DNA from: a virus
DNA: 64,000 bases
Strand: one strand, 5' to 3'
Virus record (IMG/VR): IMGVR_UViG_3300017763_000002
Location: 62,001 to 126,000 of that record
The translations under genes and the position numbers were made by a program. Positions 3,966 to 30,424 of this stretch are shown here, piece by piece; the first letter of the stretch is position 1; each line of letters starts with the position of its first letter. The notes below the pieces were generated by a model. That model made no database searches and had not been told where the DNA came from. It worked only from the letters and a program-made list of their open reading frames with translations.

Positions 3966-3975
3966 GTTAAGAATG

Positions 3976-4004
3976 ATAATACCACAGGTTTAACTGTATG
4001 TCAA
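3976..4004 (-). promoter_or_regulatory. Sigma70-type promoter for dnaB-primase-nuclease unit
   Basis: On the minus strand, TTGACA (3999-4004), a 17-bp spacer and TATTAT (3976-3981). The -10 ends 10 nt before the dnaB ATG. The -35 overlaps the stop codon of the upstream 85-residue gene. Confidence 0.85.
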
Positions 4005-6075: not shown

Positions 6076-6081
6076 TCAGGA

Positions 6082-6110
6082 AGTATAACACATAAATTAA
6101 ACTATGTCAA
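6082..6110 (-). promoter_or_regulatory. Sigma70-type promoter for recA unit
   Basis: TTGACA (6105-6110), 17-bp spacer, TATACT (6082-6087) on the minus strand. The -10 ends 6 nt before the GTG start at 6075, so transcription would begin at or next to the start codon. The -35 overlaps the 3' end of the membrane-protein gene. Confidence 0.85.
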
Positions 6111-8012: not shown

Positions 8013-8023
8013 AATTTTATATA

Positions 8024-8248: not shown

Positions 8249-8254
8249 ACAAGA

Positions 8255-8263
8255 GTATTACAC
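8255..8263 (-). promoter_or_regulatory. GTGTA-type start-proximal element (8248 gene)
   Basis: GTGTAATAC on the minus strand; GTGTA is 10 nt before the ATG. No TTGACA-like -35 at 17 bp. Member of the proposed second promoter class. Confidence 0.45.
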
Positions 8264-8269
8264 GTATTT

Positions 8270-9283
8270 TTAAAAATCGTCTTCTAAAGAGCCGCTTTGT
8301 TGATATTCTCTGACCCTTCTTTCGAAGAAATTACCCATGGCCTGCACGTCAACAACTTCTCCAAGCCAAGGAAATGGGTTTTTATCACTAGGGAATCTGT
8401 AATCTAAACCGATCGCTTCAAGCCTTCTGTTTCCAATATAATACATATAATCGACAAACATTTCTGCATTTAAACCTAATATTCCTGTTGGTAGAACGTC
8501 GTGTGCATAAGCAATTTCTAGTTCAACAGCCTTTTTAATATGCTCTACAAATTCATCTTGAATTTTTTTAGTCCATATTGTAGGGTTCTGCTCTATTAAG
8601 GTATTAATTAAATATGTACCAAAGGCTATGTGGGAGCTTTCGTCCCTAAGGGTGTACTTGATTTGATCTGAAATGCCTTGTAGTTTGTTTTGCCTGCCTA
8701 ATGCAAGCAACATTGCGAAGCCGCTAAAAAAGAAAGTTCCTTCGCAAACAATCCAGTAGGTAAGAAAGTTTCTTAGTATTTCTTGCTTTCCTTCTTTAGA
8801 GTGTGGGTTAAAATCTTGTCTTCCTATGTCGTTGGTTATAGCCATAAGAAAGTCGTCTTTAGCTTTAATACTTGGAATATTCTCGTAGGCGGTAAACACT
8901 TCATCAATATCTAAATCTAAACTATCACAAACGTATACTACCGTAAGGTTGTGAAGGCTTTCTTCAAATGCTTGACGAAGGATATACTGGCGGCACTCAG
9001 CGTCAGTAATGTATTTAAAGGCACTAAGCAAAAGATTATTACCAACCAAAGACTCGCTTCCAGCAAAAAATCCAAGACAGCGCTTAACAAGTAATTTTTC
9101 ATCTTCTGTAATATCTCCATTTTTCCATTGTTGAATGTCGTTTTGCATGGATATTTCTGTGGGCATCCAATTGTTCGCACAGCTTTTCAGGAAAAGGTCC
9201 CATGCATATTTGTGTTTATGTGGCAGTATTCTATTTACACCTGCAATATTTTCTGTTAAAAGTTCTCCTGTTTTATCGTTCAT
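8270..9283 (-). CDS. nrdB: Ribonucleotide reductase small subunit, class Ic-like
   Basis: 337 aa R2 protein that generates the oxidant for ribonucleotide reduction. Metal ligands are readable: Glu77 (GSESL), Glu108 and His111 (EESLH), Glu181 (CEGTFFF), Glu215 and His218 (RDESSH). The usual radical tyrosine four residues after the first His is Val115, and the first ligand is Glu rather than Asp. Both changes are the known signature of class Ic (Mn/Fe, tyrosine-free) R2 proteins. The C-terminus (SGSLEDDF) is the tail that should dock to NrdA. Encoded 27 kb from nrdA on the opposite strand, with its own promoter. Confidence 0.93.
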   Translation of the reverse strand: MNDKTGELLTENIAGVNRILPHKHKYAWDLFLKSCANNWMPTEISMQNDIQQWKNGDITEDEKLLVKRCLGFFAGSESLVGNNLLLSAFKYITDAECRQYILRQAFEESLHNLTVVYVCDSLDLDIDEVFTAYENIPSIKAKDDFLMAITNDIGRQDFNPHSKEGKQEILRNFLTYWIVCEGTFFFSGFAMLLALGRQNKLQGISDQIKYTLRDESSHIAFGTYLINTLIEQNPTIWTKKIQDEFVEHIKKAVELEIAYAHDVLPTGILGLNAEMFVDYMYYIGNRRLEAIGLDYRFPSDKNPFPWLGEVVDVQAMGNFFERRVREYQQSGSLEDDF

Positions 9284-9290
9284 GTTTTTT

Positions 9291-9319
9291 ATATTACAGC
9301 ATATAACGAATTAAGTCAA
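9291..9319 (-). promoter_or_regulatory. Sigma70-type promoter of nrdB
   Basis: TTGACT (9314-9319), 17-bp spacer, TAATAT (9291-9296) on the minus strand. The -10 ends 7 nt before the ATG, leaving no room for a leader with a Shine-Dalgarno. Confidence 0.8.
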
Positions 9320-9327
9320 GAAAAAGT

Positions 9328-9966
9328 TCAATCTTTTTGTTCTGGGCACATCAATTTTATTAAATCATTCTGCTGTGTTTTTGAGGCCTTGTTCCATTGA
9401 AGGGCTATATCTTTTCTTTTTTCTTGTATAGTTTTTTCTTTTTCGCATAATTCTTTTTCTATTTTTTCTAAAAAATCAATAGATATTTCTGAAAGATCAA
9501 TGTCTAGATCAAAAGATATTTCTATTAAATCTTCTATCTTGTTAGTCTCTTTAGCCTCTGTAGCGCTTATGAACATCTCTGTAAGCTCTTCGTCTTTTAA
9601 GTCTGGGTGGGTTACTTTCGCGATCTCTCTATATAAAGACTTGACTTCATCAGCTTCTGAGTCTGTCACTTCTTTTGCTTCTGGTTTATCATGAGCTTTA
9701 TCTGCAACAAGCGGGTTTTTGCAATTAGGGTTATTAGCGCAATATTCTATGATTGATGCAAACATTTTTTGTTTAGCTTCGGAAAGCTCTTCTTCTAGGA
9801 TTTCCATTTCTATACTTAAGTATTTGCTTTTATGCTTTAGTCTTAATAAAAATTTATTTTTTTCTGAATTGTTGGTTTTTTTACGTTTGCGTTTTTTATT
9901 GGAAGATGGTCTGTATTTACCAAGCTCCTCTTTTTCCCATTTTTTAAAAGATTCAAAAAAGTCCAT
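9328..9966 (-). CDS. J-domain-like protein
   Basis: 212 aa. A short J-domain-like helix-HPD-helix is visible at about 105-150 (LYREIAKVTHPDL, HPD at 120-122), which in DnaJ proteins stimulates Hsp70 ATPase. The N-terminus is strongly basic (KKRKRKKTNN) and the flanks are predicted coiled coil. It may recruit host DnaK, for example for replication complexes or virion folding. J-like proteins of this kind occur in marine phages without known function. The gene starts directly after the terminator of the upstream fibre gene and has a GTGTA element 9 nt before its ATG. Confidence 0.65.
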   Translation of the reverse strand: MDFFESFKKWEKEELGKYRPSSNKKRKRKKTNNSEKNKFLLRLKHKSKYLSIEMEILEEELSEAKQKMFASIIEYCANNPNCKNPLVADKAHDKPEAKEVTDSEADEVKSLYREIAKVTHPDLKDEELTEMFISATEAKETNKIEDLIEISFDLDIDLSEISIDFLEKIEKELCEKEKTIQEKRKDIALQWNKASKTQQNDLIKLMCPEQKD

Positions 9967-9975
9967 AAGGTTTTT

Positions 9976-9980
9976 TACAC
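9976..9980 (-). promoter_or_regulatory. GTGTA-type start-proximal element (J-domain gene)
   Basis: GTGTA followed by AAAA, 9 nt before the ATG at 9966, abutting the T-tract of the upstream terminator. No -35 box seen. Because the terminator isolates this gene, a promoter is needed close to here. Confidence 0.4.
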
Positions 9981-10003
9981 AAAAAAACCCCCCTTGCGGG
10001 GGG
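9981..10003 (-). terminator. Rho-independent terminator of the fibre gene
   Basis: On the minus strand, six C, loop GCAA, six G (9988-10003), then seven T (9981-9987). A textbook GNRA-type tetraloop hairpin with T-tract, 30 bp after the stop of the fibre gene at 10034. The only clear intrinsic terminator I could find in the window. Confidence 0.93.
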
Positions 10004-10033
10004 CGTAGTAACTAAACTATCTTTAATTTTAAA

Positions 10034-11431
10034 TCAGGAATCATGCCCCTGAGGCTCTACAGATAGAATAATATCCATACTGTATCCAGTACCTGCAATG
10101 TTATCCGAAAAATCGAATATTGCTTGGGTATTGCTAACGCTCCTCAACTGGCAGATCACGATTGGATCTCCAGAAACACTGTTCTTGATTTGCCCCATAA
10201 CCTTTGGAGACTGAGTAGCTGTGAAGCCAAACCCAGTATAATCGCAGGTAATGGACTGCGCTCCGCTAGAGATAGCAAAGTTCGATACGCGAATATTGTT
10301 ATCAATTCTTTGTATCGTTCCTTGGATCGATACTTCGGAGGCACTAATTCTTGTTGTAAGGGAGCCAGTCTTGCTGTCCATTTCAACTTCTTCAGCACTC
10401 AAGCGAGTTGTAAGGGAACCAGCTTTGCTGTCCATTTCAACTTCTTCAGCACTCAAGCGAGTTGTAAGGGAACCAGTCTTGCTGTCCATTTCAACTTCTT
10501 CAGCACTTACGCGAGTTGTAAGGGAAGTTTCAGCGGCACTTACACGAGTTGTAAGAGAGCCAGCTTTGCTGTCCATTTCAACTTCTTCAGCACTCAAGCG
10601 AGTTGTAAGGGAACCAGCTTTGCTGTCCATCTCAACTTCTTCAGCACTCAAGCGAGTTGTAAGAGAACCAGCTTTGCTGTCCATTTCAACTTCTTCAGCA
10701 CTCAAGCGGGTCTCAATAGAATCAACTTGACTACCTTCTGATCCTGTAGCAACTTCGTTAGCACTTAAACGAGTTGTAAGGGAAGCTGTCTTGCTGTCCA
10801 TTTCAACTTCTTCAGCACTTACGCGAGTTGTAAGGGAAGTTTCAGCGGCACTTACACGAGTTGTAAGAGAACCAGCTTTGCTGTCCATTTCAACTTCTTC
10901 AGCACTCAAACGAGTTGTAAGGGAACCAGTCTTGCTGTCCATTTCAACTTCTTCAGCACTTACGCGAGTTGTAAGGGAATCAGCTTTGCTGTCCATTTCA
11001 ACTTCTTCAGCACTTACGCGAGTTGTAAGGGAACCAGCTTTGCTGTCCATTTCAACTTCTTCAGCACTTACGCGAGTTGTAAGGGAATCAGCTTTGCTGT
11101 CCATTTCAACTTCTTCAGCACTTACGCGAGTTGTAAGGGAATCAGCTTTGCTGTCCATTTCAACTTCTTCAGCACTTAATCGGGTCTCAATAGAGTCGAC
11201 GCCGTTATTTTGAATGTCAGAAGCAGTACTTTCTTGAACACTTACTCTGGTTTCCAGAGAAGATGTTAAGGATGTCTGTGCGACTTCTGTAACGCTTTGT
11301 CGAGATTCAAGAGAACCTGTGACGCTTACATCAGCTTGAACTACATTATCAAATACTAGTTTACCACCAGCATTTTTTTCGATTGTTACACTGTCCAGCT
11401 TTATCTTTTCAGCAGCAATAATTTTTGCCAT
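10034..11431 (-). CDS. Repeat-built fibre or whisker protein (18-residue coiled-coil repeats)
   Basis: 465 aa. Residues about 75-370 are a ladder of an 18-residue unit whose core is SAEEVEMDSK followed by (A/T)(D/G/A)SLTTR(V/L). The core occurs 13 times, with two short SAAETSLTTRV insertions and one divergent unit (ANEVATGSE). The pattern is a trimeric coiled-coil shaft. The N-terminal about 50 residues (AAEKIKLDSVTIEKN) look like a virion attachment domain, and the C-terminal about 90 residues (VSNFAISSGAQSITCDYTG) a beta-rich tip. Monocistronic: own GTGTA-like promoter and own terminator, which suggests high expression. Which virion part it belongs to is unknown. Confidence 0.75.
   Translation of the reverse strand: MAKIIAAEKIKLDSVTIEKNAGGKLVFDNVVQADVSVTGSLESRQSVTEVAQTSLTSSLETRVSVQESTASDIQNNGVDSIETRLSAEEVEMDSKADSLTTRVSAEEVEMDSKADSLTTRVSAEEVEMDSKAGSLTTRVSAEEVEMDSKADSLTTRVSAEEVEMDSKTGSLTTRLSAEEVEMDSKAGSLTTRVSAAETSLTTRVSAEEVEMDSKTASLTTRLSANEVATGSEGSQVDSIETRLSAEEVEMDSKAGSLTTRLSAEEVEMDSKAGSLTTRLSAEEVEMDSKAGSLTTRVSAAETSLTTRVSAEEVEMDSKTGSLTTRLSAEEVEMDSKAGSLTTRLSAEEVEMDSKTGSLTTRISASEVSIQGTIQRIDNNIRVSNFAISSGAQSITCDYTGFGFTATQSPKVMGQIKNSVSGDPIVICQLRSVSNTQAIFDFSDNIAGTGYSMDIILSVEPQGHDS
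10335..11180. repeat. 54-bp in-frame tandem repeats in the fibre gene
   Basis: Near-identical 54-bp units encoding the 18-residue repeat, 13 core copies broken by shorter units near 10500-10560 and 10720-10860. Identity at DNA level (only a few variable bases) points to recent expansion or gene conversion. Confidence 0.9.
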
Positions 11432-11441
11432 TGAATGTATG

Positions 11442-11446
11442 TACCC
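11442..11446 (-). promoter_or_regulatory. GTGTA-like element (GGGTA) of the fibre gene
   Basis: TTTAGGGTACATA on the minus strand; GGGTA is 10 nt before the ATG at 11431. Matches the TAGGTGTACA sites at 12681 and 28584 in sequence and distance. Confidence 0.45.
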
Positions 11447-11467
11447 TAAAAGCGATAGAATGGGAAT

Positions 11468-12601
11468 TTAAATATTCTCAAACAGTTGTGAAGTTTTTTT
11501 AATATTGTCTGGATTGTTCGGGCTGTATTTCCAGCACAACTCTTTTCCTTGTTCTAGTTTTATATCCAAATTATCGTTGTGTTCTTCTGTGGCAAGCTTT
11601 AATTGTTCTGCAGCTTCAATCATATTAAAATCTTCGTAGTAATATCCAAAATCTTTTATAAATTCAGAGTTATGAACTAAAGGGTATCCAAAATGGGCAG
11701 CTTCTAAATACGTATAATTTAATGCATTTAAATGTTGGTGGCTGAGAAAAATGGGGTTATCTTTACTCATAATTTTTGGCATAGCTTCTCGTGGATCGAA
11801 TATCATTCTTTTTATATGGTTTCTGAAAACCCTATCATTTAATATTCTAGATCTTAGTTGATCTTTTTCATCATTGATTAATTTTAATGTGCCAAAGAAT
11901 ATAGCTTTTTCAAAAATATCTGGATAATGTACTAATAAATGTTTAACTGTAAATAATGGAGGTATAAAAGTTTTACTAAAGTTAATATTGGGTTCAACTA
12001 TAGCAATATTATTTTTTTCTTTTATATTGTATTTTAAATCTTTTTCTTGTATATTAAGAACTTGTGCTGAACCATATATAAATTTAGGATCCCATATATA
12101 TGGTAGCTCAAAAGTATTTGGCGAAGTATTTATTTTTAAATAATCTTCACAGAAGTCGTAATGGGGAGAATATAGAACTGCGTCATGAATTAAAGAACTT
12201 GGCTCGGAAGCCCAGCCTCCATGGTTTTCTTCACTGCAAATATAATTACAAATATCTGTAACTAAAACATTTCCATAATTAATGGCAGCAATTTTACATT
12301 CTGAATTCACTGATTTGTATTTTTCTGCATGCTCTGGATTGCATGCTATGCCTGGGGTACAAACGACATCTAAATGGTGCTTTATTGGTGACAATTCATC
12401 GTAAGATATAATGTTTTTATTATTTAAAAAACTTTGTTCAATGTCTGTTTTAATTATAGACTCTTCTTGGTTTCCGCAAAAATCTATAAAAAATACATCG
12501 TGCCCAGCGGATTCAAGTATTTCATAAAGTAGTATTATGTTCTGGTACAACCCGTTAGAAAAAAATCCGTAATTAAATCTAGTAGTTATTCCTATATGCA
12601 T
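11468..12601 (-). CDS. DUF2827-like glycosyltransferase
   Basis: 377 aa. Overall GT-B appearance. The C-terminal block (LNYTYLEAAHFGYPLVHNS then FGYYYEDFNMIEAAEQL) is the signature region of DUF2827 proteins, which are treated as glycosyltransferase-like. The N-terminus (IGITTRFNYGFFSNGLYQN) fits the first Rossmann strand and glycine loop. It probably transfers a sugar to a phage or host surface glycan; donor and acceptor unknown. It stands between the fibre gene and the divergent portal gene, and so may act on the fibres. A GTGTA element lies 9 nt before the ATG. Confidence 0.75.
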   Translation of the reverse strand: MHIGITTRFNYGFFSNGLYQNIILLYEILESAGHDVFFIDFCGNQEESIIKTDIEQSFLNNKNIISYDELSPIKHHLDVVCTPGIACNPEHAEKYKSVNSECKIAAINYGNVLVTDICNYICSEENHGGWASEPSSLIHDAVLYSPHYDFCEDYLKINTSPNTFELPYIWDPKFIYGSAQVLNIQEKDLKYNIKEKNNIAIVEPNINFSKTFIPPLFTVKHLLVHYPDIFEKAIFFGTLKLINDEKDQLRSRILNDRVFRNHIKRMIFDPREAMPKIMSKDNPIFLSHQHLNALNYTYLEAAHFGYPLVHNSEFIKDFGYYYEDFNMIEAAEQLKLATEEHNDNLDIKLEQGKELCWKYSPNNPDNIKKTSQLFENI

Positions 12602-12610
12602 GAATATTGT

Positions 12611-12615
12611 TACAC
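12611..12615 (-). promoter_or_regulatory. GTGTA-type element of the DUF2827 gene
   Basis: ATGTGTAACAAT on the minus strand; GTGTA is 9 nt before the ATG at 12601. No matching -35. Confidence 0.45.
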
Positions 12616-12670
12616 ATAATGTTTTTTAATAAAAGTTAAAAGTTAACTTTAGACTTTACTTAGACTTTTA

Positions 12671-12685
12671 TATAATATAGGTGTA
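12671..12685 (+). promoter_or_regulatory. Portal-unit promoter region: TATAAT plus GTGTA element
   Basis: TATAAT at 12671-12676 (weak -35 TTTAGA 17 bp upstream) followed by TAGGTGTACA, with GTGTA at 12681-12685, 10 nt before the GTG start at 12696. Either box could be the -10. The GTGTA box is at the same distance from the start as in the other virion genes. Confidence 0.5.
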
Positions 12686-12695
12686 CAGATATAGC

Positions 12696-14741
12696 GTGAG
12701 CAAAAGAAAATATAATAAAAAGTCTGACTATTGGAAAAAATTCGACAAGCCTAATTCACCAGCAATCCCTATAGTCTCTGAGGATCAAGTGCCTCCTGCT
12801 TTTGCTGGAGAGTCTTATTATTCTGAAACCACAAATGCGTCGGTAATATTGCAGCAATCTAATGCGAACAGAAATGAACCAGGGCAAAGTAGGACAAATA
12901 GAAGGTCTAATACTAAAGCTAAAGCTCAAAAGAAAGATAAGTATGAAAATATAAGAAGCGGGGTATTGCCTTATGATTTTTCTTCTAGCGGAATTTCTAT
13001 AAGAGATTCTGTTGAACTCTGCCAGAAGGCCTACGCTAATATATCAATTTTTAGAAACGCAATAGATATTATGTCTGAGTTCGCCAACTCAAATATACAG
13101 CTTCAAGGCGGCAATCAGAAGTCAAGAGAATTTGTATATAAGTGGTTTGATAAAGTTAATTTATGGAAAATTAGAGACCAATACTTTCGAGAGTATTACA
13201 GGTCTGGGAATATCTTCATGTATAGAGTGGACGGAAAATTCACGCGAGAAGACTTTGCTAAAATGTCTAAGGTTTATGGCGGTTTGGAGCCTGGTAGAAT
13301 ACCAATAAGATACATATTTCTTAACCCTTATGATATTATGGCTCATCGGGCGACAACTTTTAGTGAGGGCCAGTATTTTAAAGTCTTATCTGAATACGAT
13401 TTAGAAAGACTGAAGAGCCCCAAGACAGAATATGATCAGCAGGTATTTGATAGTATGCCTAAGGAAGTAAAAGAAATATTAGATACTAATTCTTTTCCAA
13501 GAGATGGGGTTAAAGTTCCTCTTCCTGATGATAAAATTATTCACTCTTTTTATAAAAAGCAGGATTACGAACCGTTTGCAATACCTTTCGGCTTCCCCGT
13601 GTTAGATGATATAAATTACAAAATAGAACTTAAAAAAATAGATCAGGCTATATGTAGAACTATAGAAAATGTTATATTGCTTATTACTATGGGCGCTGAA
13701 CCTGAAAAAGGGGGGATAAATCCTAGAAATTTAGAAGCCATGCAGAAGCTTTTTCAAAACGAAAGCGTTGGGAGGGTTTTGGTTAGTGACTATACTACTA
13801 AGGCAGATTTTGTTATACCAGATATAAGGAAGGTTGTTGGCCCAGATAAATATCAGATAGTTAATCAAGATATTAGGGAGGGATTACAAAACATTATTGT
13901 TGGAGACGAAAGATATAGTAATACTCAAGTAAAAGCAGAAATCTTTTTAGAAAGATTAAAAGAAGCAAGGAACGCTTTTCTTAATGATTTCTTGCAAGAT
14001 CAAATTAAAATGGTTTGCGAAAATATGGGCTTTAGGCAATACCCTGTAGCTCATTTTGAAGAGATTGATATTAAAGACGAAGTCCAATTACAAAGAGTCG
14101 CCACAAGACTGATTGAATTAGGCATACTTACTCCTGAACAAGGAATTAATGCAATTAAATCTGGAATATATCCTGCGGGGGAAGATTTAGATCTCGCTCA
14201 AGAAGAATTTTTGTCTCAAAGAAAAGAGGGTAAATTTAATCCATTAGTCGGAGGAGTTCCTTCTGTTGAGAATCCAGGGGCAGAAAAAGATAGGGCTCTT
14301 CAGAAAGAAACTATGCAAAAAGCTGCACCTCCTGTCCAACAAAGTGCACCTACAAAAGAAAGCGGTAGGCCTACTGGCACTAATGGAATTCCGCAAGAAA
14401 ATAAATCAACAGAAAAAATTACACCTTCAGATATAAAAGATGTTATATTTAAAATAGAAAATTTAAACAAAGCTGTTAAGTCTCAAGTATTAAAAAAGCA
14501 TTCTGTAAAAAAACTTAATAAAGCACAAAATAAAATGGTAGACGAATTATGCGAATCTATTATATGCTCTTCTAGTCAAAATGAATGGGAAAAAGTTGCG
14601 CAATGCTGTATGGATGATAATAATCAAATCGCTAAGTTACAAGTAATTCCTGAGATACTAGATATAAGTCAAGAGAAGGAGCTGGGTTTGTATCCGTCGG
14701 CTATATTTTATCATAGTATGGGGGAATTTACTGATGATTAA
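12696..14741 (+). CDS. Portal protein
   Basis: 681 aa from the GTG at 12696. Portal-type features: an N-terminal Lys/Asn-rich disordered arm, then SVELCQKAYANISIFRNAIDIMSEFA, YREYYRSGNIFMYRV, a central loop of helices (FLERLKEARNAFLNDFLQDQIKMV) and a C-terminal Pro/Gln-rich tail. Portals form the dodecameric DNA channel at the head vertex. An upstream in-frame GTG at 12681 would add five residues, but it lies within the conserved GTGTA promoter element and is unlikely. First gene of the plus-strand structural block. Terminase and capsid genes are not adjacent, which is unusual. Confidence 0.8.
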   Translation: MSKRKYNKKSDYWKKFDKPNSPAIPIVSEDQVPPAFAGESYYSETTNASVILQQSNANRNEPGQSRTNRRSNTKAKAQKKDKYENIRSGVLPYDFSSSGISIRDSVELCQKAYANISIFRNAIDIMSEFANSNIQLQGGNQKSREFVYKWFDKVNLWKIRDQYFREYYRSGNIFMYRVDGKFTREDFAKMSKVYGGLEPGRIPIRYIFLNPYDIMAHRATTFSEGQYFKVLSEYDLERLKSPKTEYDQQVFDSMPKEVKEILDTNSFPRDGVKVPLPDDKIIHSFYKKQDYEPFAIPFGFPVLDDINYKIELKKIDQAICRTIENVILLITMGAEPEKGGINPRNLEAMQKLFQNESVGRVLVSDYTTKADFVIPDIRKVVGPDKYQIVNQDIREGLQNIIVGDERYSNTQVKAEIFLERLKEARNAFLNDFLQDQIKMVCENMGFRQYPVAHFEEIDIKDEVQLQRVATRLIELGILTPEQGINAIKSGIYPAGEDLDLAQEEFLSQRKEGKFNPLVGGVPSVENPGAEKDRALQKETMQKAAPPVQQSAPTKESGRPTGTNGIPQENKSTEKITPSDIKDVIFKIENLNKAVKSQVLKKHSVKKLNKAQNKMVDELCESIICSSSQNEWEKVAQCCMDDNNQIAKLQVIPEILDISQEKELGLYPSAIFYHSMGEFTDD

Positions 14742-15045
14742 TAATATTGTAAGTCAAGCAGGTTATTTAGAATTAGTAAAAGCTAGCTCCACAACGATCG
14801 CTAATTTAGGTATTTTTTTATGTAATATAGATACAAAAAACGCTGATGTTATTGATCTTTTTATTGTGCCATCTGGAGGAACCCCCGGAAACGAAAACAA
14901 AATATTATCAGAACTTTATATTCCCCCAAGTCAAACTTTTAGTTTTGGGGAAGAAAAATTTATATTGGAGCCTGGAGACTCAATAGGCTTCTCATCTCAG
15001 GTTGGAGGCAGAATTACTGCAACCGTAACTTTTACTGAATTATAA
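14734..15045 (+). CDS. Small beta-rich virion protein
   Basis: 103 aa, overlapping the portal end by 8 bp, with GGGGG 9 nt upstream of the ATG as ribosome site. The sequence reads as a beta-sandwich (LELVKASSTTIANLGIFLCN, LFIVPSGG, FILEPGDSIGFSS, ITATVTFTEL), a pattern I associate with small connector or tail proteins of marine phages. No precise family recognised. Its stop overlaps the next start as TAATG. Confidence 0.6.
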   Translation: MINNIVSQAGYLELVKASSTTIANLGIFLCNIDTKNADVIDLFIVPSGGTPGNENKILSELYIPPSQTFSFGEEKFILEPGDSIGFSSQVGGRITATVTFTEL

Positions 15046-16943
15046 TGGCCGGCTTTGTTCCAAAAGAAGATGCTATATCCGGAGCCTACCTTAGGCTTAA
15101 CGGAGACGACGAAGTATTTGGGCATAAGGATTTTATTAACGATGTAACTATTCGTGGTGATCTTCAAGTTTCTGGAGATATGCGTGTTTCTCAAATAGTA
15201 GATTTTACTAGTGAGTCTGGAGATATTAGCGGGCATATATTTAGGGGTAGTACAGCATATTTTGATGAAGTGGTCGTAGGCCAATTATCTGCGCTAGAAA
15301 CTTCTGGGGGTTCTTCTGGTGAAACTTCTGGAGGATTAGATACTGGGCCGGTTTTTGTAAGATCAGTGAGTGCTGTTAATGGAGTAAGGGAAATATTGGA
15401 GTCGGAATACAATGGGGAGATTATAAGAAAAGTTAAAACTGCAAGCGATCAAGTGGATGTGGGACTTATGTTAGAGCGCGGAGATGCTCAATCATATAAA
15501 CCTTCAATTTTCTATTCTGTAAGCGGGGTAGATAATTCCGATCAAGCGATTGACCCCTCCTCGTTATCAACGCATTCTAATGGGTATTCTTTTAATTCAA
15601 CAGTTAGGCTTGATGCTTCGACTCCTAAAACTTATTTATTTAAAAACGGATCAAGGCAAACTTATTTAATAATAGAAAAAGATACTCCCCCGCAAATTAT
15701 ATCTGCAGAATTTGTTAACAAGTTAGGGACTGGCAGTTTTTATGGAACTGCTTCTTTTAATTCCGAATCTGGAGCGGTGACAGTACAGCAGACTGAAGCT
15801 AGAAATGGCGATGTTGCTAGGGTTAAGGTAGTTGCAAATAAAGCTATAGGGCAAATACATATATCGGGGGCAGCAGTGTCAAGTAAAACTGTAAACTCTC
15901 CTTCTTATATAGATAATCTAGATGGAACTTATACGCATGAATTTGATGTAAATGTTTCCGCTTCAAACTCTGTATCTGATAGAAGTTTTACTATAAGAGT
16001 GAATGATTTAGTTGGTAATCCTTCTGAAAATTACAATTCAGATAATACAATTAAAACAAATAATCAATCTCCGTCTGGCAGTATATCTATATCTTATCCT
16101 AATAATACGGGATTAATGAATAATACTACTGACATAGTTTCTTTTAATGTAAGTGCTAATAATTTTGATCATTATAATTTTAGTAATAGTGGTATTTTTT
16201 CTATTAAAGAGGAGCCTACTACTTTAACTGGTGGACCTTTTAAATTTTCTGCAGAAAACGCAAACTCTAGAACTAGTGGTAGTTTTTCTGTGCAAGTATT
16301 TAAAGCTTCGAATGGGCGAACGGCTAGTTTTTCCAGCTCATCCGTGCAAGTCCAGTCTTTTGGAACTACGCCTTCTTTAAATTTTTCTCCAAACCTTTTT
16401 AGTTCTTCAAATTCAGGGGCTGTTTTGAATAATGTAAATATAACCTTAAGCGAAGAAGTAGATGTATTGACCGTAGATTCGGTTTCTGATACAAGTATAT
16501 CAATACAAAACTTAACAAAGAATAATAATAAATCTTTTTCTTTTCAAATATCTGTAGATGATTCTTCTCCAAGAGGAACTTTTACAATTAATTTTGCAGG
16601 CACAAAAATAATAGGAGATAGTTTTAGTAAAAGTGATACTGGATCTATTAGAGGGTTTAATCAAAGAACAGTGACCGCTCTTGCGACTGCATATGAGCCA
16701 GTAGATATTGGGGTAAATGTATTTAATACTTCACGATTAGTGGTTTCTGTCCAGCCTGACGGAGGTAATTCTTTTTCGGTGAACTATGACTCAAATATTA
16801 CTGGACCAAAACAAGATGGAACAAGTAATCTTGAGGCTGCATTTGGGATAATAGATGATAATAAAATAGTAATAGATAATCAAGTTATTACTAACGCTGG
16901 GAATGTAAGTGATGTTTTTATAACCGTGGAGGAGTTGCAGTGA
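15045..16943 (+). CDS. Large virion surface protein with Ig-like domains
   Basis: 632 aa. The N-terminus (VTIRGDLQVSGDMRVSQIVDF ... GSTAYFDEVVVGQL) is the repetitive beta pattern typical of phage fibre shafts. A Gly/Ser/Thr linker at about 85-100 (ETSGGSSGETSGG) leads to several Ser/Asn/Thr-rich beta-sandwich repeats (for example FTIRVNDLVGNPSENYNSDN), consistent with Ig-like or bacterial-surface-type domains. Probably displayed on head or tail for host attachment. Exact virion location unknown. Next gene starts 2 nt after its stop. Confidence 0.6.
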   Translation: MAGFVPKEDAISGAYLRLNGDDEVFGHKDFINDVTIRGDLQVSGDMRVSQIVDFTSESGDISGHIFRGSTAYFDEVVVGQLSALETSGGSSGETSGGLDTGPVFVRSVSAVNGVREILESEYNGEIIRKVKTASDQVDVGLMLERGDAQSYKPSIFYSVSGVDNSDQAIDPSSLSTHSNGYSFNSTVRLDASTPKTYLFKNGSRQTYLIIEKDTPPQIISAEFVNKLGTGSFYGTASFNSESGAVTVQQTEARNGDVARVKVVANKAIGQIHISGAAVSSKTVNSPSYIDNLDGTYTHEFDVNVSASNSVSDRSFTIRVNDLVGNPSENYNSDNTIKTNNQSPSGSISISYPNNTGLMNNTTDIVSFNVSANNFDHYNFSNSGIFSIKEEPTTLTGGPFKFSAENANSRTSGSFSVQVFKASNGRTASFSSSSVQVQSFGTTPSLNFSPNLFSSSNSGAVLNNVNITLSEEVDVLTVDSVSDTSISIQNLTKNNNKSFSFQISVDDSSPRGTFTINFAGTKIIGDSFSKSDTGSIRGFNQRTVTALATAYEPVDIGVNVFNTSRLVVSVQPDGGNSFSVNYDSNITGPKQDGTSNLEAAFGIIDDNKIVIDNQVITNAGNVSDVFITVEELQ

Positions 16944-16944
16944 T

Positions 16945-19068: not shown

Positions 19069-19074
19069 AAAAAG

Positions 19075-19079
19075 GTGTA
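19075..19079 (+). promoter_or_regulatory. GTGTA-type element before the lectin-like gene
   Basis: AAAGGTGTAATAAAA in the 20-bp gap; GTGTA is 9 nt before the ATG at 19089. The AGGTG could alternatively serve as a distant Shine-Dalgarno. Confidence 0.4.
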
Positions 19080-19088
19080 ATAAAAAAT

Positions 19089-20378: not shown

Positions 20379-20379
20379 A

Positions 20380-23300
20380 ATGGCTAAGAAGTGCAGGTTT
20401 GGTTTTTTTATAAATCCAGAAAATGGCTACCCTCGTATGACTGACAATACGTTAATCACTAGTTATCAATTAAATAATTATTCTGGGGGTATATTAAATG
20501 GAAAATACACATCTTCTGAAATTACCGCAGTCACAACACTAGATACGCACGGAGCCTCAAATTATTTTTGGAAAGAAAATCAAGAAAGTAATTGGGTTGA
20601 GGAGGGTGACGAAAATACGAATTATTTAATTGGTGGAAATGGTGATAGTGCTGGCTATAATTGGAATCCATCAAGAATTAATCTTTTGGCGCACGCATCA
20701 GATGACGGGTTGCCTGTTGGCGCTGTTAATCCGCAGCCTCAAGTTTATCAATCTACAGGATCTTCATTTTACGGAGCTGAAGGTTCCGGCAAAAGAACAA
20801 TAATTGGAGTTGATTTAAATAAAATTTCCGATGGTTTTTATGCTAATTTTTGGATGAGTTTCGCTAGAAATACTGTAGTTGATAGAAATACATATTCAAT
20901 TAAAGACGTAGTTAAATTTAAGCTTAATGATAAGTATTATTCTGTTCACATAGACATAACTGATAATGAATTAAGGATATTAAATCATACAGATAAATTA
21001 ATTCTATCATCTTCACCTTTTCAGCCTACCGATAATACTTATAATTGGCATAATTTTGATTTGAGAATTAGTTCAACATGTAAAATTGAATGTTCTTATA
21101 AAAATGCATATGTTAGTTGTCAATTATCAAATTTATCTTTTGAGCAAATGCAGGAGTTATATACTTTTCCTGGTGCGGTTCATGCGGCTTCTCATTTAAT
21201 GAGTACAAACTGGTCTGTTAATGATGGATCTGGTAGTGAAGATAATGGGCCAGCGAAACCTTTTATTGCTGTGCCTTATCATTATCATAAAAAAATTGAC
21301 AACATGAGTAATTTTGAATTAGCAAGTTACCCTGGAGCTAAAGCGTGGGCTACGTGGGGTGGCGCTTATGAATATAGAGCTAGAAATGTCGGGGCGGAGG
21401 GTAACAAATATAGATGCCAAGTAAAGGTTAATACTGCTAATACTGAAGATTTTGAATGGTTGATTATCGATCAGGATGGTCAGGTTTTTATAACATTACA
21501 TTGCAAAAATCATCCAAATACTTATACTCGAGCAGAGATAAGAGAATTTTATAATAATACCCCTGGTAACCCTTATACCATGATACCTTATGATGATGAT
21601 AATTGGGCCTATCCAGCTGAAGCAGCTGGTATATCTACTTGGGGGTGGGGTTCATTATCGGGAGGTATAGACGCTGGAATCGATCCTGCGTTATCAATGA
21701 AAACTATTAAGTCTAAAATAGAATCCGAAACAGGAGAAATCAACTTATCTTTATCAAGTTTAGATAAAATGTATTGGGGGCATGCCGACACTTCTATAGT
21801 GATGAGTGATTTTAATAATGTTGAAGCTTTTAATGTAATTGTTAATGGTTTAAAAACTGAAGTGCTAACTTCTGCTAAAATTAATGCGGTTCTTTTTGAT
21901 GATGATTCTAATTCATCAGTATCAGAAGATTTTACTTTTGTAGGATTAAGTGATGTTAGTAATTTATTTTCTATTTATAAGCCGCAAGTAACAAAAAGCA
22001 AATTTAATTCTGGGTTGGCAAAACTTAGATTAAATCTTCATCGAGGCGATCCCTTACTTATATATGATGCTGATGGAGACGGAATAGAAGATTCTCAAGA
22101 TCCAAGCTTTATGGATGCCGATGGAGATGGTGTTGTTGATGAATTGGATGCACTTCCTAATGACCCCAATGAGTCTGTAGATTCTGACGGAGATGGAGTA
22201 GGGGATAATTCAGATTCTCAGCCAAATAACCCAGGAGTTTCTACTCCTCCTGCGCATTTTGTTTATGGAGATGATGGATCTAATGGGATTGGATATTATT
22301 ATCCTGTATATTTAACAACAAATGGTCTTGGGCCTTACCATTCTCATGTAATTAACGGACAAACCGTTTACATGGAAGACGCTAACGCAAATCACGCGCA
22401 AGCAAGTTTATCTGGAAGTTATACAATTTTACCAGGCACAACAGTTCCTGATGCAGACGGAGATGGTGTTCCTGATGATTTAGACGCGTTTCCTAACGAC
22501 GCTTCTTTAAGTGCTAAACAAAATTACTCTTTAACTTGGAACCAATCGTCTGGATCATTGAACACTTCTGCAGGAACTCATGCTTTGGTTGCAACTAACG
22601 AATCAAATAGTGAACCTATCGTTTGGAATATAACCAGTGGAAGCGGTGCCTACGTAGGCGTAGATGGTAATGGTAATCCAGCTTTAATACTAACAGGTAA
22701 TGGTAGCGTATCAGTTTCTCCAAGTATAGCGGGTACTTCAGAATACAATGAGCTAGCCGCAGGTGTTGTAGTTAAAGATTTTCACATATTAGATAATACT
22801 ACGGACACTGATGGAGATGGAGTTGCTGATTTTTATGATTCGTATCCAAATGCGTCTTCTGTTTTAGATAGTGACGGTGATGGATTAACTGATGAAGAAG
22901 AGGCCTCTATAGGCAGTGATCCTAATAATACTGATTCCGACGGAGACGGACTAGATGATTACGAAGAAGAAATGGGTTGGGGAATAGATCCTAATAACCC
23001 AGATACAGACGGTGATGGAATTGGCGATTATGAAGAAGCTACTGGAAATACAGACCCTGGAGACGCTGATACTGATGGAGACGGCGTGCAGGACGGGGTT
23101 GACGCTTTTCCGCTCGACGATAGTGAAGACACTGATACTGACGGAGATGGTACTGGAGACAATGCTGATGGCGCCCCAAATGATCCATCTAGCACTACTG
23201 CTGCAGTATTTGACGAATCATCTATAACTAGCCCAGATTTTGCCGCACTAACTGGGTCCAGAGCGGGCTGGGATTACGAAATTGTAGACCAAGCAGGCGC

Positions 23301-24435
23301 TACCCTTACATGGGACGCTGTTCCTGGCGCAACCGAATACAGTGTCACCTTAAACAGGTACAGTTACAGTGACCAAGCTGGAAATTCTACTATGATAGAT
23401 TCAGTTGTATACGATAAGGATAATGGTTATGTTTCCTACGGAGACTCTAATAACTCTACATATAGTTTTACATTACCTACGGAAACAGAAAGCACTGGCT
23501 ACATCATTAGGGTTAACCCTATAGGAAGTTCTTTTGCGCAAGTTAGGCTAGATGTTGTTTTTGTATTGTCTGCGCCTGTATCTGCAACACCCGCGCAATA
23601 TCAACAAGCAGAATCTTTGCTTCAGGGTAATCAAACAGAACCTTTAATTGTGGCTTTAGAGATAGTTCAATCTGAAAACTTTTTCGGCTCTCCAACAAAT
23701 GGTGTTCAAGCTAAGTTGCTTGATACTAGAAATTTTACTGACGTTTCTTTTAAAATCAATTTCGGAGATACAGGAGGAAGTAACGCCGCGATAACTGGCT
23801 GGGTAAGTGCTGAAGGAGAGGCGTCAGCAGACGGGGATGTGAACCCTTTAAGTGGGAATACAGTAAATCAATTTACTAAGGAGGGCTCATTGTATACATT
23901 TACTCTTCCGTTGAGCGGCAATCATTCTGGGGTTAAAGGGTTCTCGGCGCGTGCTTTTGAAAATGGGGTTACAGTTGGTGATGAGACGAGTAGGAGTGAT
24001 TTTGCTCCTGAATTAAATATAGATTCAATAGGAAATTCTTGGGAAATCTCAGAATACCACCCGAATGAAGTAAGAATAACTAGTTATTATAGTCCGTATT
24101 CTTGGAATTTTGCAAGCAACACTCAAAATGCTAGTGTGTTGTATGGAACTCTTAATGGCTCTAGTGGATATGGTCACTATTATGGTAATCATTTTAATAT
24201 AGCGTTGAGTGTAGAAACCGAATTTAAATTTGTAAACCAAACAAGTACTAATTTTTATGTTTATAGACCTAATGGAAACCATTTGTTTAGCGTAGAAGCT
24301 GGAGGAGAAACACTGATAACTTTAAATCAAGTAAGAGATTATAACGGTAGCGAGAGTGATGGATACGCTTGGTCTAGAGATAGTAATATAATGAGCGGTA
24401 GTACTGGTACCGAAGGCTTTATATACGTAGGTTAA
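20380..24435 (+). CDS. Giant lectin-like and TSP3-repeat adhesin
   Basis: 1351 aa. Residues 1-300 repeat the ConA-like domain of the preceding protein (HASHLMSTNWSVNDGSGSEDNG). A second, related domain fills 300-560. TSP3-type calcium repeats occur at about 564-620, 690-705 and 807-937 (DTDGDGVADFYDS, DSDGDGLTDEEEAS), separated by Ig-like segments (SVSPSIAGTSEYNELAAGVVV). The C-terminal 400 residues comprise two or three beta domains of unknown type. Probably a long extended adhesin stiffened by calcium. It ends head-to-head with the minus-strand gene at 24436 with no intergenic base. Confidence 0.65.
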   Translation: MAKKCRFGFFINPENGYPRMTDNTLITSYQLNNYSGGILNGKYTSSEITAVTTLDTHGASNYFWKENQESNWVEEGDENTNYLIGGNGDSAGYNWNPSRINLLAHASDDGLPVGAVNPQPQVYQSTGSSFYGAEGSGKRTIIGVDLNKISDGFYANFWMSFARNTVVDRNTYSIKDVVKFKLNDKYYSVHIDITDNELRILNHTDKLILSSSPFQPTDNTYNWHNFDLRISSTCKIECSYKNAYVSCQLSNLSFEQMQELYTFPGAVHAASHLMSTNWSVNDGSGSEDNGPAKPFIAVPYHYHKKIDNMSNFELASYPGAKAWATWGGAYEYRARNVGAEGNKYRCQVKVNTANTEDFEWLIIDQDGQVFITLHCKNHPNTYTRAEIREFYNNTPGNPYTMIPYDDDNWAYPAEAAGISTWGWGSLSGGIDAGIDPALSMKTIKSKIESETGEINLSLSSLDKMYWGHADTSIVMSDFNNVEAFNVIVNGLKTEVLTSAKINAVLFDDDSNSSVSEDFTFVGLSDVSNLFSIYKPQVTKSKFNSGLAKLRLNLHRGDPLLIYDADGDGIEDSQDPSFMDADGDGVVDELDALPNDPNESVDSDGDGVGDNSDSQPNNPGVSTPPAHFVYGDDGSNGIGYYYPVYLTTNGLGPYHSHVINGQTVYMEDANANHAQASLSGSYTILPGTTVPDADGDGVPDDLDAFPNDASLSAKQNYSLTWNQSSGSLNTSAGTHALVATNESNSEPIVWNITSGSGAYVGVDGNGNPALILTGNGSVSVSPSIAGTSEYNELAAGVVVKDFHILDNTTDTDGDGVADFYDSYPNASSVLDSDGDGLTDEEEASIGSDPNNTDSDGDGLDDYEEEMGWGIDPNNPDTDGDGIGDYEEATGNTDPGDADTDGDGVQDGVDAFPLDDSEDTDTDGDGTGDNADGAPNDPSSTTAAVFDESSITSPDFAALTGSRAGWDYEIVDQAGATLTWDAVPGATEYSVTLNRYSYSDQAGNSTMIDSVVYDKDNGYVSYGDSNNSTYSFTLPTETESTGYIIRVNPIGSSFAQVRLDVVFVLSAPVSATPAQYQQAESLLQGNQTEPLIVALEIVQSENFFGSPTNGVQAKLLDTRNFTDVSFKINFGDTGGSNAAITGWVSAEGEASADGDVNPLSGNTVNQFTKEGSLYTFTLPLSGNHSGVKGFSARAFENGVTVGDETSRSDFAPELNIDSIGNSWEISEYHPNEVRITSYYSPYSWNFASNTQNASVLYGTLNGSSGYGHYYGNHFNIALSVETEFKFVNQTSTNFYVYRPNGNHLFSVEAGGETLITLNQVRDYNGSESDGYAWSRDSNIMSGSTGTEGFIYVG

Positions 24436-24443
24436 TTAACCTA
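24428..24443. repeat. 16-bp perfect palindrome at convergent stops
   Basis: TAGGTTAATTAACCTA, centred on the boundary between two convergent TAA stops (24433-24435 plus, 24436-24438 minus). Both genes end in Gly-stop (GGT TAA), which largely generates the symmetry. Confidence 0.85.
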
Positions 24444-25956: not shown

Positions 25957-26681
25957 TCGGAGTTCATCTTTCCTTCAACAACATACTTGACGGTGTATCC
26001 AGAAATTGTATGATCTCTTTTGAATGATAAGATATTATCTCTTTCAATATCTGAAAAACCCATTGAAAATCCATCTTCAATAAAAACGTAATCAGGTTGA
26101 TCATCCATTCTGAATTTTAATTTATATAATGTATCGTTGATAATAAAAACGTCTGAACTTGGGTTTTCATCATGACCGTAAGCATCAAAGTAACCAAAAC
26201 TATCTCCAGAGTACTGATCTAACCTTATTGCAAATTTTTGATCTGTGTCAAAATTAAATATTCTTTCGCTGCAATGTAGTTCGTCTATATCTTCTTGTAG
26301 TATAAAGAATTGTTCTTTTTCTTTTAGAGCTGTTGTTGGATTAAATACTGTTTCACATTCATCTGGTAAAGAAAATAGTTCGTCGGTTGTTTCTAATATT
26401 AATATATCTTCGTCAATTTTTTGATTAAAGATTTTTGTTCTTTCTGATCTTGCTTGAAGACCGCTAATATTAAACTTTATTTTTTCTAAATCTTGATTGA
26501 TTTCATTAAAATTATTATTATCATTTTGTATTAAAATACTATTTTCTTCAGAGATTTTATCTAGTAAGGTTGAATTTAAATTTTCGTTTTGAGTATACAA
26601 ACTACCAAGAGAACTCATTACAGAATTTTGGTAATCTATTTGCTCTCGACTTTGACTGCTTCTGAAATTAGATATATTCAT
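25953..26681 (-). CDS. Virion-associated coiled-coil protein
   Basis: 242 aa from the ATG at 26681, which overlaps the upstream stop as ATGA and has AGGGG 10 nt before it. An in-frame ATG 33 nt earlier would need a longer overlap. The N-terminal about 100 residues are coiled coil. The C-terminal beta part (RLDQYSGDSFGYFDAYG, DYVFIEDGFSMGFSDIERDN, YTVKYVVEGKMNSE) parallels the C-terminal middle of the upstream protein (RFEDYKGNTDGYQS, GFEVRYSIERM), so the two look like paralogues of one structural domain. Function in the virion unknown. Confidence 0.6.
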   Translation of the reverse strand: MNISNFRSSQSREQIDYQNSVMSSLGSLYTQNENLNSTLLDKISEENSILIQNDNNNFNEINQDLEKIKFNISGLQARSERTKIFNQKIDEDILILETTDELFSLPDECETVFNPTTALKEKEQFFILQEDIDELHCSERIFNFDTDQKFAIRLDQYSGDSFGYFDAYGHDENPSSDVFIINDTLYKLKFRMDDQPDYVFIEDGFSMGFSDIERDNILSFKRDHTISGYTVKYVVEGKMNSE

Positions 26682-28573
26682 TTTATAAATTCCCCTAAAG
26701 CGTATCTTCTCCATTCGTCTCTGCCTTTATCGCCACCTACCTTAACAGATCCACCTGCGTGTTTTAAATATATAAAATACTTATCTGCCCAAAAATTATT
26801 ATGACCCTGCATTGGTATTTGAGCTGTATACGCCCACTCTACCAAAGGTATTCTGCGGTCTATTTCCTGCCTGACATAAAGCCATTGATTGTCTACGTAA
26901 GTGTCATAATAGTCCAGTGGGAAAGCTCTTTCTCCTCTTCTTAAGCAATGCTCCCAAGCGGCAATAGCCATTCTTTTCCATCCTGTTCCATAAGCGACAT
27001 AAACATAAGTGTTATCGGCTATTATAGACCCAAGTCCAAGTCTTGAATGAGTTTGCTCTGGGCTCATGATGTGAGCATCTTTTTCGTCAAATAGATTTTC
27101 TTCAGGAGTGTACATTCTTTCTATACTATAACGAACTTCAAAGCCAGATATGGTATATTGTCTTCTTAGAAAAGTTTGATACGCTTCATCTTTAGTTAGC
27201 TCCATTTTTTGACCTTCATGTAAACTGAAATCTGAACCTCCGCCTCTAAAATAAACTTCCAGTGGGAATGGGCTATCATTATATATTGTAACTTTATCGT
27301 CACTACCCATTCTTTTGGGAAATGGAAATAGGGATTGGTATCCATCTGTATTTCCCTTGTAATCTTCAAACCTAATTGAATGTGGCATTACTTCGTCAAA
27401 AACAAACAGCCTATCTTTGTTCATTTCTCCTTGGAAGTCTTCAGCTAATAACATTTCCTGTGATAATTCAGGCGTTGCTGTAGAATCGTAACGACCGTTG
27501 TATGTTACTTTGTTGAATAATTTATCATACAAAGATGCATCTTCTGGCTTATCATAATCGATTGTCGTCTCTTGAATCATACCTTCTTCTTCAAATTTTT
27601 TTACATAAAAAGTTAAGTCTCTGAAATTACCCTTTAGCTCTTCTAGGGTTAGGTTTGATTGTTCTGTATTAACGCTAACATTTCTTAGGTTTCTTTCGTT
27701 TTCTATATAATGCAACTCGTTGTGTCCAGATATACCAGATAGTAATCTATGCGTTTCTGGATCTGCCCCCAGTTCTACATTAAGTTTTTCTAAAGTTCCA
27801 GAGATGCCAGATAACCATTCGTTCGAATCTTCTATTAGGTCTTCTATTTCTTCAGAAGAATCTAATATTCCAGAGCCAACTTCTAGATTATCTTGATGTA
27901 TTAAGTTTGCATCTTCTAGCTCTTCTAGAATTAAATTTTTAACATCTATTTGCTCTTGCTGTTTTTGAAGTTGGACTTCTTGGTTTTCTCTTATTTTTCT
28001 AGAATCTTCTTGGTTAGATTCTTTCAACTCATCTATAGAGAACTCTATGTCTTGAAGATGTGTGTGGGTCTGATTGATCATTACATGAGTATGACCAAAT
28101 CCTGTTGCTACTGTGTTTTGTAAATCGTCTAAGTTCTCGTTTATTTCATCTGCGCTAGATTCTATAACACCAGAAATACCTGATAATATTCTGTGGGTTT
28201 CTATATCTTGAGTGTCTAAACTCTCTTGAAGTAATCCAGATATTGCGGATAATAAATTGTGTGTTTTTATATCTTCTGGATTTAAGTTTTCCAGTATACC
28301 TGATATTCCAGAAAGTAAACTATGCGTTTGCTCATCAGAGGAACTGCCATCTAGATTAGATAGCTCTCCTGATATTCCAGATAAAATTCTATGTGTATTT
28401 ACATCATTAGGCTCTAGATTTAACTCAAGATTATCGATGTTAATCGCAGCGCCGGTGTTAGGGACCCATTGCCCCATCTTTTCGTCCCATTGAAATGTAA
28501 AAGCTACATTATGGGAGGGGTCCAGCTTTTGTATCTGGCTGTTAAAAAGAGGGTTATTTTGGAAATCCGGCAT
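26678..28573 (-). CDS. Virion protein with SGISG repeats
   Basis: 631 aa, first gene of the three-gene fibre unit. Residues about 55-300 contain six copies of TH(R/S/N)(I/L)LSGISG-type motifs (THRILSGISGEL, THSLLSGISGIL, THNLLSAISGLL, THRILSGISGVI, WLSGISGTL, THRLLSGISG), set in helical sequence. A long polar coiled coil (about 165-250) and then beta-rich globular regions follow. The C-terminus has HNNFWADKYFIYLKHAGGSVKVGG. No database family recognised. Preceded by TAGGTGTACATATAAT with GTGTA 10 nt before the ATG. Confidence 0.65.
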   Translation of the reverse strand: MPDFQNNPLFNSQIQKLDPSHNVAFTFQWDEKMGQWVPNTGAAINIDNLELNLEPNDVNTHRILSGISGELSNLDGSSSDEQTHSLLSGISGILENLNPEDIKTHNLLSAISGLLQESLDTQDIETHRILSGISGVIESSADEINENLDDLQNTVATGFGHTHVMINQTHTHLQDIEFSIDELKESNQEDSRKIRENQEVQLQKQQEQIDVKNLILEELEDANLIHQDNLEVGSGILDSSEEIEDLIEDSNEWLSGISGTLEKLNVELGADPETHRLLSGISGHNELHYIENERNLRNVSVNTEQSNLTLEELKGNFRDLTFYVKKFEEEGMIQETTIDYDKPEDASLYDKLFNKVTYNGRYDSTATPELSQEMLLAEDFQGEMNKDRLFVFDEVMPHSIRFEDYKGNTDGYQSLFPFPKRMGSDDKVTIYNDSPFPLEVYFRGGGSDFSLHEGQKMELTKDEAYQTFLRRQYTISGFEVRYSIERMYTPEENLFDEKDAHIMSPEQTHSRLGLGSIIADNTYVYVAYGTGWKRMAIAAWEHCLRRGERAFPLDYYDTYVDNQWLYVRQEIDRRIPLVEWAYTAQIPMQGHNNFWADKYFIYLKHAGGSVKVGGDKGRDEWRRYALGEFIK

Positions 28574-28583
28574 ACATTATATG

Positions 28584-28588
28584 TACAC
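28584..28588 (-). promoter_or_regulatory. GTGTA-type element of the fibre unit
   Basis: TTAGGTGTACATA on the minus strand; GTGTA is 10 nt before the ATG at 28573. Same TAGGTGTACA string as at the portal gene 16 kb away. Confidence 0.5.
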
Positions 28589-30038: not shown

Positions 30039-30424
30039 AATGGCACCTCATCTTCGTCTTCTTCAAAAGCTTCTTCTTCAACCTTAGCTTTAGGTTTTTG
30101 ATCATTTGTTGGTTGGCTAGAGTCTATTCTTAAAAATTGAACAGTGTCTGCAACACAAAATATTTTAGATCTACTTTCTCCAGACTGAGATTTCCATTGA
30201 TTAAGCTCTAGTCTTCCATCCACGCAAACCGCAGATCCTTTTTTTAAAAATTTATGACAATTAACCGCAGTTTTATTCCAACATTCAATATCAATATAAA
30301 GTACTGATTTTTTAATTGGATTATTTACAGCTATACTAAACCTACATACAGACATTTGATCTGAAATGTTTTTTATTTCTGGGTCTTTTGTTAAGTTTCC
30401 AATGATTGATAGTCTATTTAACAT
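30035..30424 (-). CDS. ssb: Single-stranded DNA-binding protein (bacterial type)
   Basis: 129 aa with an OB-fold core (MLNRLSIIGNLTKDPEIK ... FSIAVN ... YIDIECWNKTAVNCHKFLKKGSAVCVDGRLE) and a disordered linker ending in the acidic tip EDEDEVPF. This tip is the known docking peptide for replication and repair partners. The KDPEI and W-N-K motifs are classic SSB. A good AAGGA site lies 8 nt before the ATG, which is inside the end of the sigma-factor gene. Confidence 0.93.
   Translation of the reverse strand: MLNRLSIIGNLTKDPEIKNISDQMSVCRFSIAVNNPIKKSVLYIDIECWNKTAVNCHKFLKKGSAVCVDGRLELNQWKSQSGESRSKIFCVADTVQFLRIDSSQPTNDQKPKAKVEEEAFEEDEDEVPF

Follow-up and report, generated by a model that had tools for sequence, protein, structure and literature searches.

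A GTGTA element at start codons as a candidate late promoter class in a family of uncultured giant phages

T4 late promoters consist of a -10 element alone (TATAAATA), are served by gp55 together with gp33 and the sliding clamp, and drive mainly virion genes. In the Thermus phage P23-45, phage transcripts are reportedly leaderless, with the promoter abutting the start codon. The middle and late promoters of phiEco32 have the consensus tAATGTAtA and no -35 element; they are used by host core RNA polymerase (RNAP) with the phage sigma factor gp36 (PMC8948821, PMC4331800), and the transcription start lies 6-8 bp past the element (PMC8948821). The late promoters read by gp47 of phage 7-11 have the form GTAAtg-16-aCTA (PMC8948821), and T4-like jumbo phages encode a sigma factor and gp33 (PMC7824862). 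Here we describe a short element, GTGTA, that lies just before start codons in the virus genome IMGVR_UViG_3300017763_000002 (an IMG/VR record of 204,906 bp). The window is the 64,000 nucleotides from base 62001 to base 126000 of this record; we also called open reading frames (ORFs) in the remaining genome and analyzed it.

The original prediction, which was made from the window, proposed that GTGTA (or GGGTA, once) precedes eight genes, mostly virion genes, as the -10 element of promoters for a phage sigma factor. All eight sites are present, 9 or 10 nt before the starts at 4258, 8248, 9966, 11431, 12601, 12696, 19089, and 28573. We propose that GTGTA, in the context of an A-rich stretch followed by AGTGTAWWAWA and with no -35 element, is a phage-specific promoter class that is read by a phage sigma factor on host RNAP (with a probability of roughly 0.78). 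The motif, its exact placement, its promoter-like anatomy, its conservation, and two genes of the sigma-70 family were computed directly. In the literature that we searched, no GTGTA promoter had been reported for a phage.

Position and anatomy of the GTGTA element

We will use "gap" for the number of nucleotides between the end of GTGTA and the start codon. Of the 43 gene starts in the window, 7 have GTGTA at a gap of 9 or 10. Dinucleotide shuffles of the upstream regions gave a mean of 0.07 such starts and a maximum of 2 in 3000 trials. The original prediction had named a comparison with shuffled upstream regions as a test that could refute it, and GTGTA is far above the shuffles in the window and is also enriched in the genome and its relatives. 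When all 5-mers were scanned without bias at all gaps across the genome (221 ORFs), 13 instances of GTGTA at gap 9-10 emerged, as compared to 1.1 expected (p 1.6e-10). This is second only to TTGAC at gap 29-31, which is the top positional motif; no anagram of GTGTA has more than 3 instances at gap 9-10.

For relatives, we used 222 IMG/VR loci (2543 distinct upstream regions) from scans with the terminase, the DNA polymerase, and sigma-B, a phage sigma factor that is discussed below. The terminase scan of IMG/VR matched at least 598 stretches, and we found no cultured member of the phage family among them. In the relatives, no positional motif is stronger than GTGTA at gap 9-10 (223 instances vs. 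19 expected). Each of nine long genomes contains 5-19 GTGTA sites, including one genome with 43% GC. If position is ignored, the window contains 42 matches to TAGGTGTACA, while 46 are expected by chance, so the signal resides in position alone.

The aligned sites from the relatives show an A/T-rich run, an exact GTGTA, and then WWAWA (A-GTGTA-WWAWA in the logo). The base 3' of GTGTA is A in 57% of aligned sites, T in 37%, C in 6%, and G in 0%. Single-base variants are at background, except for GTATA (2.5-fold), and the relatives show no enrichment of ATGTA at gap 9-10 (5 vs. 6.8). The site with GGGTA exists, but this variant is not enriched in the relatives either (4 vs. 2.5 expected), so we rejected it as an equal of GTGTA. 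The original prediction had read TGTAMWAW as the -10 element. The element is indeed -10-like, but the next base is W instead of M, and the leading G is essential. The prediction had also described the sites as lacking a good -35 box, and no conserved -35 element was seen in the aligned sites. Start 12696 does have TTTAGA-17-TATAAT just upstream as well; this sigma-70-like pair is weak, and it is the sole such site in the set.

TTGAC-class promoters have a spacer of 17 nt in 122 cases. Family-wide, in their commonest arrangement, exactly 6 nt separate the end of the -10 hexamer from the start codon (57 cases). This distance suggests that transcription starts on the start codon, and hence the TTGACA class would be leaderless. 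GTGTA at gap 9-10 lies in the same place as the -10 hexamer of the TTGAC class, within a base or two. This placement implies that the GTGTA class would yield leaderless mRNA as well, with the transcription start itself predicted from the position of the element. The genes have the traits of leaderless starts: a -10-like element near the start codon, no Shine-Dalgarno (SD) sequence, and ATG or GTG as the start codon (none of the 223 GTGTA genes starts with TTG). We looked for a third promoter class, which a second sigma factor might read, but nothing turned up other than SD (AAGGA) and shared coding context.

Promoter element or ribosome-binding site

The distribution of GTGTA strongly supports a promoter element, not a ribosome site. 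Family-wide, GTGTA precedes just 2 of the 903 genes that lie less than 5 nt behind a gene on the same strand, although avoidance of GTGTA in coding DNA contributes to this contrast. GTGTA is found before 12% of divergent genes, 8% of genes with a gap of at least 25 nt to the preceding gene, and 20% of genes with a gap of 5-24 nt (p 9e-25 for the contrast); SD motifs show the opposite trend. Also, when GTGTA is at gap 8-12, 1% of the genes have an SD sequence, and this figure rises to 51% when GTGTA is 19-31 nt upstream. GTGTA itself overlaps the SD region in part, but SD sequences are also rare (3%) in the TTGAC class, which has no such overlap. The difference suggests that the element is shifted upstream where an SD leader is used. 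Several divergent gaps contain GTGTA on both strands. Before 9966, GTGTA begins right at the end of a strong terminator, and only GTGTA and nine bases separate the terminator from the start codon. The T-run of this terminator (9987-10004) runs straight into the promoter, which makes a terminate-and-restart junction.

Within coding sequence, GTGTA is among the most avoided of the 1024 5-mers (the ratio to synonymous-codon shuffles is 0.43 pooled and 0.28 in this genome). All GTGTA is avoided: we did not see avoidance specific to the functional GTGTAW over GTGTAG. Another kind of avoidance was seen in relatives G002, G003, G004, G005, and G008, where several CCGG-containing 5-mers, the most avoided of those listed, have an observed/expected ratio of 0.00 in coding sequence, as if these phages were escaping a host restriction system. 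In relative G009, GGCGT/GCGTA is avoided instead.

Could GTGTA be a translation signal, such as a ribosome-binding or start-selection element? The fixed distance of 9-10 nt recalls SD spacing, and GGTG at some sites could pair with the anti-SD. But the base 5' of GTGTA is rarely G; GTGTA, unlike SD sequences, hardly ever precedes operon-internal genes; in genes with an SD, it sits 19-31 nt upstream; it occurs in divergent gaps and directly after a terminator; and the -10 box of the TTGACA class lies at an equivalent distance. We consider a translation signal very unlikely, and we rejected the SD reading specifically on the operon-position and SD-distance evidence. On this point the original prediction, which had argued that several of the sites cannot be SD sequences, holds up. 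Chance or shared coding context would be in keeping with an AT-rich genome, with related sequences, and with the chance-level count of the unpositioned 10-mer in the window, but it is contradicted by the shuffles, the anagrams, the single-base variants, and the nine genomes, including the one with 43% GC. We give it almost no weight.

Gene classes, sigma factors, and a proposed cascade

In this genome, five PHROG-named head or tail genes that have their own promoter are in the GTGTA class, and the helicase, NrdA, and NrdB are in the TTGACA class, which agrees with the original proposal of a distinct TTGACA class. (The PHROG names include tape measure, J-like tail protein, tail fibers, internal virion protein, terminase, and PhoH, and on the replication side helicase, primase, UvsX, NrdA/B, and SSB.) Promoter classes persist between orthologs. 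The tape measure protein is in the GTGTA class, with a leader, in all eight relatives, and the divergent pair at genome 136879/137220 keeps this class among relatives. So does the 85-amino-acid gene at 4001-4258, in most or nearly all relatives. The gene at 12696, which encodes a large protein of no known function, is in the GTGTA class in 7 of the 7 relatives that have it. The DnaB-like helicase keeps the TTGACA class. As to whether GTGTA heads mostly virion genes, as originally stated, the window shows few (one gene encodes a DUF2827 protein and most belong to no family), but the whole genome and the relatives support the link, which is carried by the tape measure protein, the J-like tail protein, and the fibers. 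About 25 further genes in the whole genome are headed by GTGTA; in one group of them, the element lies 15-30 nt upstream.

Two other genes of this class stand out. An internal-virion-protein-like gene with GTGTA 21 nt upstream is followed by a single open frame of 5895 amino acids (genome 18704-36391). A gene of 115 amino acids (genome 169102-169449) keeps its GTGTA promoter in nearly all relatives and has no known family.

The original prediction correctly stated that the phage encodes its own sigma factor: the protein at 30414-31019, which we call sigma-A, belongs to the sigma-70 family. It matches phrog_351 and a SigA/RpoD sigma-2 profile, and its AlphaFold model has the sigma2 + sigma4 fold (predicted local distance difference test, or pLDDT, of 85), with matches to SigA/RpoD. 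Sigma-A is found in 16 of 19 records and sits among replication genes. (A scan with this single protein found no relatives; they were later found inside long records.) There is also a second sigma factor, sigma-B, encoded outside the window. Sigma-B is just below the cutoffs for Pfam's Sigma70_r2 and r4_2, and one relative is above the cutoff for r2. Four conserved cysteines lie between the r2 and r4_2 regions. The best Foldseek matches are to the extracytoplasmic function (ECF) sigma H and are weak (E 4e-3). Sigma-B follows a zinc-ribbon gene (ORF at about genome 40781) in an operon; the zinc-ribbon protein is conserved family-wide, and in most relatives the pair has a TTGATA-N17-TATAAT-type promoter. 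Using tblastn, neither sigma factor had a match at E ≤ 0.01 among 50,697 phage records, although more distant homology is possible.

When both sigma factors were compared over one set of eight genomes, the mean identity of the sigma-2 region was 68% for sigma-B and 35% for sigma-A. Because sigma-B is the more conserved while the DNA motif is unchanged, and because its operon has a conserved host-type promoter, we suggest that sigma-B is probably the reader of GTGTA, that sigma-A is a much weaker candidate, and that a role for both or for another protein is less likely again. The original prediction, which linked GTGTA to sigma-A, probably chose the wrong one of the two.

It is unlikely, though conceivable, that sigma-A reads this promoter class while sigma-B serves another class or acts as a cofactor. 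Sigma-A is a clear sigma2 + sigma4 protein, with its confident model, its SigA/RpoD matches, and its presence in most records among replication genes, but its sigma-2 region has diverged while GTGTA is invariant, sigma-B is far better conserved and has the conserved host-type promoter, and we found no third promoter class for a second sigma factor to read. A less probable alternative is sigma appropriation, in which GTGTA would be bound by a phage activator or by a host sigma-70 holoenzyme that has been modified. T4 middle and N4 late promoters use such strategies (PMC5312081), and the conserved zinc-ribbon protein before sigma-B could be a cofactor. However, the element occupies the place of a -10 box (about -14 to -10 relative to the start codon) and not one further upstream, the alignment shows no TATAAT or -35 beside it, and two phage sigma genes are available. 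Promoters for a phage-encoded RNAP seem as improbable as a translation signal: other giant phages do transcribe from short promoter motifs with RNAPs of their own (PMC7824862), but we did not find an Rpb2-type subunit in six genomes (all 14 of 14 controls were positive).

If GTGTA is read by a phage sigma factor, as we favor, then host RNAP with that factor would recognize GTGTA as a -10-like, single essential element. RNA would start about 9-10 nt downstream of GTGTA, which in most genes is the start codon and would give leaderless mRNA; other genes, such as those for the tape measure and J-like tail proteins, would have a leader of about 10-20 nt with an SD. The conserved host-type promoter and the conservation of sigma-B suggest a cascade. 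The host sigma-70 holoenzyme would first use the leaderless TTGACA-N17-TATAAT promoters of early genes, replication genes, and the zinc-ribbon/sigma-B operon, and sigma-B, more likely than sigma-A, would then switch on the GTGTA genes, mainly virion genes. The traits of a late promoter class occur together here: a fixed-distance motif, no host -35/-10 pair, a phage sigma factor, and a place at the operon heads of virion genes.

Several points weigh against this proposal. NrdA is in the TTGACA class in this genome but in the GTGTA class in some relatives, so the GTGTA class is not purely virion and the split between virion and replication genes is a tendency. GTGTA at gap 9-10 is scarce in some of the relatives (sigma-B groups 2-4). 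We infer both the late timing and the start points. AlphaFold modeled sigma-B with low confidence, and the protein has a conserved sigma-4-like helix-turn-helix (HTH), yet no matching -35 was seen. Each of the nine records that are 160 kb or longer has both sigma factors, and their presence or absence therefore does not discriminate between them. A search for a T7-type single-subunit RNAP gave no match, but its control was silent too. Also, because the genomes are related and thus not independent of each other, the family p-values overstate the significance. Despite this kinship, the argument still stands on nine genomes and on many genes that are unrelated.

Mapped features and comparison with known systems

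Features of the window, together with sigma-B, are listed in Table 1. The stem of the terminator before 9966 is the most G+C-rich found across 3500-23400. Candidates for the capsid and for the protease/scaffold had no PDB or Pfam match, and an Rfam search of the window gave no match. The terminase was found in four contigs of metagenome-assembled genomes, which belong to unrelated groups, so we do not assign a host.

Table 1. Promoter elements and related features (window coordinates unless marked as genome).
Feature	Coordinates	Strand	Remarks
TTGACA-17-TATTAT host-type promoter	3976..4004	-	DnaB-like helicase gene; contrast class
GTGTA element	4268..4272	-	gap 9 before 4258; 85-amino-acid gene, no known family
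TTGACA-17-TATACT host-type promoter	6082..6110	-	hexamer ends 6 nt before start 6075 (leaderless)
GTGTA element	8259..8263	-	gap 10 before 8248; 74-amino-acid gene
TTGACA-class promoter, leaderless	9291-9319
GTGTA element	9976..9980	-	gap 9 before 9966; starts at end of terminator T-run
Intrinsic terminator, GCCCCCCGCAAGGGGGGT + T-run	9987..10004	-	directly upstream of GTGTA at 9976..9980
GGGTA variant	11442..11446	-	gap 10 before 11431; doubtful
GTGTA element	12611..12615	-	gap 9 before 12601 (DUF2827 protein); half of divergent pair
GTGTA element	12681..12685	+	gap 10 before GTG start 12696; other half of divergent pair
GTGTA element	19075..19079	+	gap 9 before 19089; second GTGTA at 19063-19067
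GTGTA element, TAGGTGTACA	28584..28588	-	gap 10 before 28573; 631-amino-acid gene
Sigma-A, sigma-70 family (sigma2 + sigma4)	30414..31019	-	candidate of the original prediction; fast-evolving
GTGTA element, leadered	58717..58721	-	20 nt before 58696 (J-like tail protein), then SD-like stretch
Sigma-B, sigma-70 family	genome 41100-41909		outside window; phrog_1740 match

Taken as a whole, we lean towards the following picture. A widespread, uncultured giant-phage family would run its late program from an invariant GTGTA that is read by an undescribed ECF-like sigma-B, which has a four-cysteine insertion and is made with a zinc-ribbon partner; host- and phage-type promoters would both lie at the start codon, and leaderless mRNAs would encode much of the proteome. 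This would give a readable transcription code for a large giant-phage family (TTGACA for early genes and GTGTA for late genes), so that early and late genes could be assigned from sequence alone. It also names a sigma factor to test. And it would be a natural case of a fused promoter and start codon, which may be useful for understanding how leaderless translation is supported.

Of the known systems, gp36 of phiEco32 shares the single-element design without a -35 and the TGTA core. The core is AATGTA there and GTGTA here, however; the placement of GTGTA suggests leaderless mRNA, and the GTGTA family is far larger. Also, the consensus tAATGTAtA is absent from our logo, and tblastn found no homologous sigma factor (E ≤ 0.01). 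The -10-only late design is shared with gp55 of T4, but the T4 element is not in the GTGTA logo, and sigma-B has a sigma-4-like HTH. Phage 7-11 likewise uses a phage sigma factor, gp47, on host core RNAP at late genes; its promoters are bipartite, in contrast to the single element here. Finally, P23-45 relies on the host holoenzyme and phage regulators (PMC5312081), instead of the phage sigma factor that we propose for the GTGTA promoters.

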